Under the pieces are notes generated by a model. The model had not been told where the DNA came from. It saw only the letters and a program-made list of their open reading frames with translations, and searched no databases. This document shows positions 5,554 to 7,175 of a stretch of DNA of 64,000 nt, piece after piece. The translations under genes and the position numbers were made by a program. Numbering within the stretch: the first letter of the stretch is position 1; every line of letters starts with the position of its first letter. This DNA comes from an uncultured Elusimicrobiales bacterium (GTDB lineage: Bacteria > Elusimicrobiota > Elusimicrobia > Elusimicrobiales > Elusimicrobiaceae), in the NCBI GenBank assembly GCA_944324115.1, contig CALUVB010000003.1:124001-188000 (forward strand), read 5' to 3'.

Positions 5554-5592
5554 AAAAAAGAGCCCTCCGCATTCCATGAATACGGAGGACTC
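5554..5592 (-). terminator. Intrinsic terminator of the structured RNA
   Basis: GAGCCCTCCGCATTC (5560-5574) and GAATACGGAGGACTC (5578-5592) form a near-perfect 15-bp stem with a tiny loop. On the minus strand it is followed by six T residues (5559-5554). Confidence 0.9.
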
Positions 5593-5950
5593 TAGGTGCA
5601 CTCATTCATTCTCTTTTCCTTCCCCGAATAAACAGCTTTAAGATCACAAGCCAGTGAAACATTCCCTGCAAAACCCACCTCAGCAACCGGACCGTTTCTC
5701 AGATGCCTCACACCCTTCCGGCGGAAACCTAAGCGTACGCACCGTACCCTGCTGCGGTCTTGCGGTTTTGTTTTCAAGGAACATTTATTTTTCTGTTTCT
5801 AAGCCACGTACTTATGCTTCACCGTTCTTCGCGGTATCTGGCTGGCGTGACCCGACCAGTTTATATGCCTTATGTCGTTTTACATCACCGGGCAAAACTA
5901 ACACAGGGCACACATTTTCTGTCCTGCATATCCCAGCTCATACCGGGGAT
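5554..5950 (-). ncRNA. Unassigned structured RNA of about 400 nt
   Basis: This stretch has no convincing ORF on either strand but has all the marks of a stand-alone RNA gene on the minus strand. A promoter lies at 5957-5984. Many short complementary segments follow, for example the CAGG/CCTG hairpin at 5926-5904. A long-range helix pairs 5784-5775 with 5668-5659 and continues with CAAAACC (5770-5764) to GGTTTTG (5675-5669), closing a ~90-nt domain. A strong terminator hairpin with six T residues ends it. I looked for RNase P (GAGGAAAGTCC), tmRNA (tRNA-like ends, tag frame) and SRP (GGAAGCAGCC) signatures and found none. A 6S, raiA-like or new family remains possible. Ends are estimates. Confidence 0.6.
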
Positions 5951-5956
5951 ACTATA

Positions 5957-5984
5957 AGTATAGGCCTTTTTTAGCTGAAAACAA
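5957..5984 (-). promoter_or_regulatory. Promoter of the structured RNA
   Basis: Minus strand TTGTTT (5984-5979), 16-base spacer, TATACT (5962-5957). Predicted start near 5950. It begins 16 bases beyond the stop of the repressor gene transcribed in the same direction, so read-through from that gene is also possible. Confidence 0.6.
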
Positions 5985-6000
5985 GGGGTATTCTGTCTTT

Positions 6001-6708
6001 TTAGACGTTTTTAATGCGTTTAAGTATGGTGCCTAAAATACGGCCCTGCAGCGCTGTTTCTTTTTCTTTGCCGTCGGGTGAAATAAACAGCAATTGATTG
6101 CCCTTCTTTTGGAGCCGGCGGACTGCATACTCTCCGGGTTTTGTCTCCAAGAATATCATTTTCCCTTCCGGCAAATCCTGCCCCGGTTTTATTAGACACA
6201 AATCATCGCTATCTGCCTGCTTTTCCCATCCAGTATCGGCCGTGCGTAATATATATTTAGCTCCTTGGGCATAGCGGCGGGGCAAGCTCCACCATTCTAT
6301 AATTTCTCCATCATTATATTGAGGATAATAAGGCGGGACCTTGCTTAAAAACGGTAGTTGTACGCTGTTGCTTTGCTCCGGGAAATTGAGATTTTCTGTC
6401 AATATTTCTTCTCCTGTACGGTAAATGCACTCGCTCATGTCATGCTCTCTTAAAGAGCGGGCATGGCTGTGCAGTTCCGGTTCGGGATATGTGGTGGAGC
6501 GATAGTCAAAAAGTTTAAAAACGTCAAAAGCGTCTATTGCAAACAATTGCGCCATTTTTGCTACATATCCTTTAGAGGGGCGGCGTTTGCCGGTGGCCCA
6601 TAAAGCGGTGGTGGCGGTGGAAACACCCAATGCTTTTGCTAACTTGGCCTGAGCCCCTCTTAAAACGCCGTTATTCCATTTTTCTAGTTGTTTTTCAAAT
6701 TTATTCAT
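6001..6708 (-). CDS. CI/LexA-like repressor with degenerate S24 domain
   Basis: A 235-aa regulator. Residues ~1-65 form an XRE-type helix-turn-helix (AQAKLAKALGVSTATTALWA). The C-terminal ~110 residues follow the S24 signal-peptidase/LexA fold (DDLCLIKPGQDLPEGKMIFLE, then GEYAVRRLQKKGNQLLFIS). The catalytic Ser-Met pair is not visible (TADTGWEK at that place), and the Lys of the VKRL motif is Arg, so RecA-stimulated self-cleavage looks lost. A GGGAG Shine-Dalgarno precedes ATG 6708. It is divergent to a promoter overlapped by three phased ACTWAC hexamers, a likely operator. Phage-type ancestry is plausible, but no other phage genes are near. Confidence 0.75.
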   Translation of the reverse strand: MNKFEKQLEKWNNGVLRGAQAKLAKALGVSTATTALWATGKRRPSKGYVAKMAQLFAIDAFDVFKLFDYRSTTYPEPELHSHARSLREHDMSECIYRTGEEILTENLNFPEQSNSVQLPFLSKVPPYYPQYNDGEIIEWWSLPRRYAQGAKYILRTADTGWEKQADSDDLCLIKPGQDLPEGKMIFLETKPGEYAVRRLQKKGNQLLFISPDGKEKETALQGRILGTILKRIKNV

Positions 6709-6756: not shown

Positions 6757-6789
6757 TTGACAAACACTAACAAAACTTACTATACTAAC
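6757..6789 (+). promoter_or_regulatory. Rightward promoter with phased operator repeats
   Basis: TTGACA (6757-6762), 18-base spacer, TATACT (6781-6786). Three hexamers with exact 9-bp phasing overlay it: ACTAAC 6766-6771, ACTTAC 6775-6780, ACTAAC 6784-6789. Occupancy would block RNA polymerase. The divergent CI-like repressor is the natural candidate binder. Confidence 0.65.
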
Positions 6790-6794
6790 ATAGG

Positions 6795-6860
6795 ATGAAG
6801 CGTTCTTATTTTGTTTTTCCCTGTTTTCTGCGGACGGAAAGACGCCGGCTAGGTGTCTGA
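6795..6860 (+). CDS. Possible 21-aa leader peptide
   Basis: ATG 6795 follows ATAGG directly downstream of the predicted rightward transcription start and ends in TGA at 6858-6860. Its last base overlaps the ATG of the next small ORF (TGATG). The product would be short, basic and aromatic. The same transcript also contains two strong hairpins (6868-6885 and 6925-6956), so the region may instead be a structured RNA. No homologue is recognised. Confidence 0.25.
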   Translation: MKRSYFVFPCFLRTERRRLGV

Positions 6861-6976
6861 TGGAGAAGGACCGGGGCTCCGGTCCGGTATCATGGCCCAG
6901 TGATATGTTGTTCTCCTCTGTCCCGACCGCATATTTCTTGCTGGATCTATGCGGTCTTATTCTAGCAAATAAATAG
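6860..6976 (+). CDS. Possible 38-aa ORF coupled by TGATG
   Basis: Starts within the stop of the 21-aa ORF and ends TAG at 6974-6976, immediately before the second operator cluster. It contains a hydrophobic stretch (AYFLLDLCGLILA). It overlaps hairpins GGACCGG/CCGGTCC (6868-6885) and GACCGCATA/TATGCGGTC (6925-6956), so coding is uncertain. Confidence 0.22.
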   Translation: MEKDRGSGPVSWPSDMLFSSVPTAYFLLDLCGLILANK

Positions 6977-6999
6977 TAGTTTGAGTTAGTAAAGTTACA
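6976..6999. promoter_or_regulatory. Second phased operator-like cluster
   Basis: GTAGTT (6976-6981), GTTAGT (6985-6990) and GTTACA (6994-6999), again at exact 9-bp intervals but in the opposite orientation to the cluster at 6766-6789. Confidence 0.45.
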
Positions 7000-7063
7000 A
7001 AAATAGCTGGCTTATTGTGGTTTTATATAAATAGAAATAGACCAGAAACGTTTTGAAGTCTTT

Positions 7064-7078
7064 ACTAACTCTGTTAGT
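7064..7078. promoter_or_regulatory. Palindromic operator-like site
   Basis: ACTAAC (7064-7069), TCT, GTTAGT (7073-7078): a perfect inverted repeat of the hexamer seen in the two other clusters, with 9-bp centre spacing. It lies 10 bases before a 28-aa membrane-peptide ORF. Confidence 0.5.
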
Positions 7079-7088
7079 TTTGGTGATT

Positions 7089-7175
7089 ATGGATATTCTT
7101 TTGCGCGTGGTATTAACATTATTGTTGGCAGTGGCGGTGTGGGGTTTTGTCAGCGAATGGTATCACATGGAATAA
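7089..7175 (+). CDS. Possible 28-aa single-span membrane peptide
   Basis: ATG 7089 to TAA 7173-7175. The product has a short N-terminus, one hydrophobic segment (RVVLTLLLAVAVWGFV) and a charged tail (SEWYHME), the layout of small regulatory or toxic membrane peptides. No Shine-Dalgarno is obvious; an in-frame GTG lies at 7083. It follows the ACTAAC/GTTAGT palindrome and precedes a hairpin at 7216-7239. Not recognised; support is the composition and the placement. Confidence 0.35.
   Translation: MDILLRVVLTLLLAVAVWGFVSEWYHME

Follow-up and report, generated by a model that had tools for sequence, protein, structure and literature searches.

What is the roughly 400-nt stretch that lies beside a CI-like repressor gene in an uncultured gut Elusimicrobiaceae genome, and does it belong to a known RNA family that escaped recognition or to a new one? 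An earlier note on the window, meaning the whole 64,000-nt stretch of DNA analyzed here, had described a promoter and a terminator bracketing a noncoding stretch at 5554 to 5950, with extensive internal complementarity, next to a CI-like repressor, and had proposed two alternatives, a known family that went unrecognized (6S or raiA-like) and a new one. Few classes of structured bacterial noncoding RNA longer than 300 nt are known, and several lack a function. In the literature that we searched, no study of noncoding RNA in Elusimicrobiota was found.

A stand-alone structured RNA on the minus strand

The locus contains a stand-alone structured RNA, RNA1, on the minus strand, running from a start near position 5950 to an end at 5554 (5554..5950, about 397 nt). 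Homologues across the genus range from about 325 to 440 nt. The assignment rests on the stability of the fold, covariation, homologues found genus-wide, and the lack of an Rfam family. On the minus strand the fold has a z score of -4.49, with none of 100 dinucleotide shuffles as stable; the plus-strand fold is not unusual (z = -1.91). The transcript ends are inferred, as is expression, no transcriptome having been available.

A promoter of its own and a strong terminator frame RNA1, even if their activity is inferred. The promoter (5957..5985, minus strand) consists of a -35 element, CTTGTT (5985-5980), and a -10 element, TATACT (5962-5957), and is located 15 nt past the repressor stop codon. 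A CTTG-N-TATACT pattern is conserved 3' of the repressor in nearly all loci, where the promoter begins from a few to about 30 nt from that stop codon. A generic promoter scan found no RNA1 promoter at the locus because the -35 element is weak. The intrinsic terminator (5554..5593, minus strand) is a 16-bp stem (5593-5559) followed by U6, and its stems show compensatory changes among homologues, as at locus L078, where the stem sequence is different. The size and coordinates proposed in the earlier note were thus right, with the minus strand now assigned, and its promoter, terminator, and repressor neighbor all held, the last as an association conserved across the genus.

Distribution is limited to one genus

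The genus of the window is a group of gut Elusimicrobiaceae represented by 66 genomes, metagenome-assembled genomes (MAGs) of uncultured gut Elusimicrobiales or Elusimicrobiaceae; one relative is Candidatus Avelusimicrobium. By sequence or by covariance model, RNA1 was found in 63 of the 66, never in more than one detected copy. Of 61 genomes, a nucleotide search alone recovered homologues in 17, which all belong to one genus. The covariance model R1, trained solely on clades outside the window's own, located RNA1 where expected in 59 of 63 repressor loci, including those of the window's clade. By neither approach was RNA1 detected in about 275 other Elusimicrobiota genomes; across 341 genomes of the phylum, under stricter filters, R1 matches were confined to the window's genus, at most one per genome.

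The four remaining loci differ among themselves. L064 and L068 were missed by R1, and their RNA1 was recognized by sequence. L103 is cut by a contig edge, and a partial R1 match lies on another contig of that genome. At L079 (genome G071), RNA1 was not found by sequence or by R1, and the repressor is present. A phage origin of RNA1 was considered and rejected; viral contigs yielded only one match, which fell by chance within a polymerase gene.

A folded body closed by a terminal helix

RNA1 is a folded body closed by a terminal helix, P1, and carrying two copies of a CAG-AAAA/AA-CUG internal-loop module. The 5' strand of P1 (UCCCCGG, 5943..5949, minus strand) pairs with 5627-5621, and the 3' strand (UCGGGGA, 5621..5627, minus strand) abuts the Shine-Dalgarno sequence described below, so that P1 joins the 5' end of RNA1 to the bases directly 5' of that sequence. 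The pairing score was 13.2 +/- 0.36 for permuted partners and 16.6 for own partners, the latter value being reached in none of 500 permutations.

Within the body, arm 1 (5857..5921, minus strand) is formed by CAG at 5921-5919 and CUG at 5859-5857, which close the AAAA/AA internal loop and a covarying helix. Its CAGAAAA and AACUG segments are invariant in all 17 sequences of alignment A1. Across the 5' domain (17 sequences), 17 of 27 pairs showed two-sided changes, and the covariation score was 0.463 versus 0.272 in shuffled alignments (0/500). A small hairpin, CCGC-GAAGA-ACGG (5822..5834, minus strand; alignment A1), had two-sided changes in three of its four pairs.

Domain III (5652..5795, minus strand) comprises the second CAG-AAAA...A-CUG module, a closing helix (5786-5778 with 5665-5657), and a conserved core. 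The motif CAG-AAAA-helix-A(A)-CUG is therefore present twice in RNA1, closing arm 1 and domain III, and the second copy is retained in most sequences of alignment A2. Among 23 sequences, 30 of the 51 consensus pairs of domain III had two-sided changes, 92% of alignment cells were paired compared with 39-48% when partners were slid by 1-3 columns, and covariation was 0.484 versus 0.263 after shuffling (0/500). The closing helix itself covaries across the genus, reading UAAGAGUU/AAUUCUUA elsewhere. In one clade (L080, L086, L089, L092-L096) the 5' domain is reduced and a clear Shine-Dalgarno sequence is lacking.

A 17-bp long-range helix (5784-5764 with 5675-5659) that had been proposed for this region held only in part, being replaced by two shorter helices. 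Its AUGUUCC/GGAAUGU portion belongs to the domain III closing helix, now extended to the limits given above, and its AAAACC/GGUUUU portion occurs in close relatives only. The covarying P1 had been overlooked.

RNA1 matches no known family

Known families were searched for at several levels of stringency. Rfam 15 (4227 models) in strict mode returned nothing at the gathering threshold in the window, and a lenient scan of the locus on both strands gave nothing better than E = 1.2, the best chance matches reaching 22.5 bits when 54 were needed. At E values up to 1, nothing was found in the RNA1 of six divergent homologues (L118, L085, L112, L109, L106, and L089), and Rfam scans of RNA1 gave no covariance-model match to raiA/ModT, OLE, ROOL, or GOLLD. 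RNase P and tmRNA were each rejected, as both are encoded elsewhere in the genome (RF00010 at G000:C13:5509-5848, 211 bits; RF00023 at G000:C1:39164-39508, 126 bits), in keeping with the lack of an RNase P or tmRNA signature reported earlier; ARAGORN likewise found no tmRNA within the window. A 6S identity was rejected because no RF00013 match occurs at the locus and the consensus fold is multi-armed, not a single rod with a central bubble. As a separate observation, a genome-wide RF00013 search of G000 was empty, but the same search missed 9 of 14 control genomes.

Given an Rfam scan without a match, homologues throughout the genus, and strongly covarying helices, RNA1 very likely represents a new RNA family. 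Of the two possibilities raised by the earlier note, it is the second that is supported.

A mini-ORF ends at the base of the terminator

The description of this stretch as noncoding held only in part. RNA1 is encountered across divergent sequences with a mini-ORF, or minigene, element consisting of an ATG, a few codons, and a stop, which had not been noticed. In the window it reads ATG AAT GAG TGC ACC TAG (5592..5609, minus strand), encoding MNECT, and is preceded by a Shine-Dalgarno-like AAGGA (5617..5621, minus strand); AAGGA or a GAGAG-type purine-rich motif lies 5' of the mini-ORF in most loci. By a strict count, 57 of 59 loci have an ATG, 5-6 codons, and a stop at the terminator base, an arrangement found in about 1.5% of Markov shuffles. 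The stop usually ends about 2 nt within the terminator stem, and in the window the first 2 nt of the terminator are the final 2 nt of the stop codon. L080 and L092 have, by inspection, a version that is a few bases off. L123 was formally counted, but its 3' end is rearranged, and the mini-ORF has probably been lost there.

While length, signals, and geometry are conserved, the peptide is not: 34 distinct peptides occur among the loci, and all three stop codons are used (TAG 23, TGA 23, TAA 11). Because the peptide varies while length and position are kept, the function of the mini-ORF is likely to be ribosome engagement rather than its product. Both that engagement and translation of the mini-ORF, which we also consider likely, are inferred. 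Directly 5' of the mini-ORF its frame is often closed, which rules out that the mini-ORF is the end of a longer gene. A longer hidden protein was rejected on the same grounds: many homologues have no open frame upstream, and indel lengths are not multiples of three. A self-complementary GUGCAC/GUCGAC dimerization site in the mini-ORF was also rejected, as it is missing from several clades that keep the ORF. Neither RNA1 nor its mini-ORF appears to be indispensable everywhere, as G071 lacks the former and L123 seemingly lacks the latter.

The repressor is a near-constant neighbor and downstream genes are not

The neighboring XRE/S24-like (CI-type) repressor (6001..6708, minus strand) has an HTH_3 domain, and its stop codon precedes the RNA1 promoter. 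It was detected in 63 of the 66 genomes of the genus, and the DNA around each detected repressor was used for locus comparison. From the short distance between the genes, we infer that repressor mRNA is likely to run through RNA1 in most genomes. The catalytic Ser motif has been lost in the window and most loci. One clade (L080, L084, L086, L089, L092-L096, L103) keeps the S24 motif CCGDSM, with a Peptidase_S24 match of E 2.8e-13 in the L080 repressor. With or without the S24 motif, the DNA-binding domain is nearly unchanged across loci.

The association is not absolute in either direction. G070 (L197), a single MAG that is included in the total of 63 RNA1-positive genomes, has RNA1 with promoter, mini-ORF, and terminator, and has no detectable repressor and no RNA2 (a second structured RNA, described below). 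In G071 RNA1 has been lost, and the repressor, the RNA2 promoter, and a membrane peptide remain. Since G070 retains RNA1 without the repressor, RNA1 is not merely a repressor 3' untranslated region (UTR).

Genes 3' of RNA1 vary, and include yggS on the same strand, a convergent ABC transporter, a gene for a small GTPase that can lie on one or the other strand, and others. The codirectional yggS follows RNA1 in the window's clade. Elsewhere, including the L081-L100 clade, RNA1 faces a convergent neighbor, and no conserved codirectional downstream gene was found across the loci compared. Since neither the identity nor the orientation of the downstream gene is fixed, RNA1 is unlikely to be the leader of one gene, and a yggS leader was specifically rejected because the neighbor differs between clades.

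Repressor relatives with about 35-48% identity in the DNA-binding domain occur within prophage-like regions that have integrases, and paralogous repressors lie beside integrases and phage-like recombination genes at L188-L196 and L198, in genomes of this family, so that the chromosomal repressor could be a domesticated phage CI. None of the prophage repressor paralogues has RNA1.

A second RNA, operator-like sites, and a membrane peptide

On the other side of the repressor, and divergent from it, lies RNA2, a structured RNA of about 185 nt (6788-6975, plus strand). RNA2 has no Rfam match and is confined to the window's genus, where two-sided changes occur in 18 of its 32 pairs (0/500 shuffles) and its promoter is strikingly constant. 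Operator-like sites with a consensus of about GTTAGYAWAGTWA lie over the RNA2 -10 element (6762-6790) and flank the region before the peptide gene (6983-6999 and 7060-7080). These sites are constant genus-wide, as is the repressor DNA-binding domain. Farther downstream, an ORF encodes a 28-amino-acid peptide with a single transmembrane segment, MDILLRVVLTLLLAVAVWGFVSEWYHME (7089-7175, plus strand), which is TisB-like in size and hydrophobicity; counterparts of 26-32 amino acids, also with a single transmembrane segment, lie equally far from the repressor in about 33 of 61 loci. RNA2 could be the leader of this small peptide gene. A pairing of RNA1 CAGAAAA with RNA2 UUUUCUG was considered and rejected, the RNA2 motif being unconserved and the complementarity weak.

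Discussion

How RNA1 works remains a matter of inference. Our main reading, to which we assign a probability of about 0.4, is that RNA1 regulates in trans and is gated by ribosomes, by a mechanism that is unproven. Its two parts are not equally secure. That RNA1 acts in trans rather than as a leader is likely, although inferred, while the ribosome gating, also inferred, is less likely than not. Under this model, a ribosome would load on the mini-ORF and, upon reaching the stop codon, would cover the terminator base and crowd P1, and its occupancy would set the shape or lifetime of RNA1. The RNA1 body, which a protein may hold at either the duplicated module or the domain III core, would then relay the signal to targets, and RNA1 and the CI-like repressor would serve one regulatory circuit. 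A shared circuit is suggested by their nearly constant adjacency. Precedent for the ribosome step exists in the axe-txe minigene, where ribosome binding at a six-codon mini-ORF is reported to be able to stabilize a transcript (PMC8708949). In favor of the main reading are covariation in both domains and in P1, the placement by R1 of RNA1 in nearly all repressor loci and in no other genus, the retention of the mini-ORF with variable peptides at a fixed position, the changing downstream genes, and the survival of RNA1 in G070. Against it, everything beyond the existence of RNA1 is inferred without expression data, and no partner protein or target has been identified. The clade with a reduced 5' domain, the apparent loss of the mini-ORF at L123, the loss of RNA1 in G071, and the reliance of the G070 case on one MAG also count against it.

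A bolder version is also possible. RNA1 could be the first of a class with a built-in, peptide-independent mini-ORF that sits flush with the terminator and recruits a ribosome. Ribosome occupancy would then be an input that reshapes, stabilizes, or extends RNA1, which might act as a sensor of translation status.

The rival that survives best, and that remains possible, is that RNA1 is a cis-acting 3' UTR element of the repressor mRNA, which it would terminate, stabilize, or feed back upon, with its own promoter being secondary. The closeness of that promoter to the repressor stop codon supports this view, as repressor mRNA probably traverses RNA1. However, the -10 element TATACT is conserved despite existing transcription of the repressor, and RNA1 and the repressor can each be found without the other, as in G070 and G071.

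Less likely is a leader or attenuator, in which translation of the mini-ORF would disrupt the overlapping terminator and allow read-through into the next gene. Overlap of the stop codon with the terminator base in almost every locus is the geometry expected for ribosome-controlled termination, and yggS is codirectional in the window's clade. This reading is opposed by the convergent next genes of the L081-L100 clade and others and by downstream genes that are unrelated between clades, and we regard it as improbable.

We consider it very unlikely that RNA1 acts as an antisense, antitoxin-like RNA toward either RNA2 or the membrane peptide mRNA. The conserved neighborhood, and the resemblance of a 26- to 32-amino-acid peptide to TisB-type toxins in size and hydrophobicity, speak for such a role. 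However, there is no convincing excess of complementarity over permuted partners (p = 0.155 and 0.05 for RNA1 and RNA2, and p = 0.10 for RNA1 and the peptide region, with small effects), and the peptide occurs in about half of the loci while RNA1 is nearly universal.

A divergent form of a known family (RNase P, tmRNA, 6S, raiA, OLE, or others) is all but excluded as the identity of RNA1: its size range fits, and an insensitive RF00013 search located no 6S elsewhere in the genome, but neither the window nor six divergent homologues match Rfam, RNase P and tmRNA are sited elsewhere, and a multi-arm fold with two CAG-AAAA modules is unlike 6S.

By analogy, RNA1 most resembles a large, ornate noncoding RNA of the raiA/ModT or OLE kind. 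The raiA-motif RNA (ModT), OLE, ROOL, and GOLLD are large, ornate, stand-alone bacterial RNAs with no settled biochemical function (PMC11706538, PMC12286853). Like them, RNA1 is large, single copy, stand-alone, and strongly covarying; unlike them, it has no Rfam match and is limited to one genus. It also has a conserved mini-ORF at its 3' end, a feature that, to our knowledge, has not been described in any of the four. Other systems share individual features. tmRNA is similar in combining about 350-400 nt and a folded body with a very short reading frame, but RNA1 lacks a tRNA-like end or an encoded tag and ends in an intrinsic terminator. Leader minigenes such as that of axe-txe (PMC8708949) also have an ORF of a few codons with its own Shine-Dalgarno sequence, where ribosome engagement may matter more than the peptide, but in RNA1, which stands alone, the mini-ORF occupies the 3' end and does not precede a coding gene.

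DapZ and MicL are 3' UTR-derived small RNAs that have their own promoters. RNA1 is like them in that its promoter lies where a coding gene ends and its terminator is shared with that gene, but it is far larger and more structured and persists without the gene in G070. TisB/IstR is a type I toxin-antitoxin locus, and the locus described here shares with it a repressor-linked promoter region, a structured RNA, and a single-transmembrane peptide of about 28 amino acids nearby; it differs in that antisense pairing of RNA1 with the peptide region is unconvincing.

The finding of RNA1 is robust, resting on its presence in 63 of 66 genomes and its strong covariation, and RNA1 is absent from Rfam. The mini-ORF at its terminator raises a testable question, namely, whether the ribosome can be a regulatory ligand of an otherwise noncoding RNA. 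RNA1 also marks a compact locus of repressor, RNA, and membrane peptide that is common to gut Elusimicrobiaceae.
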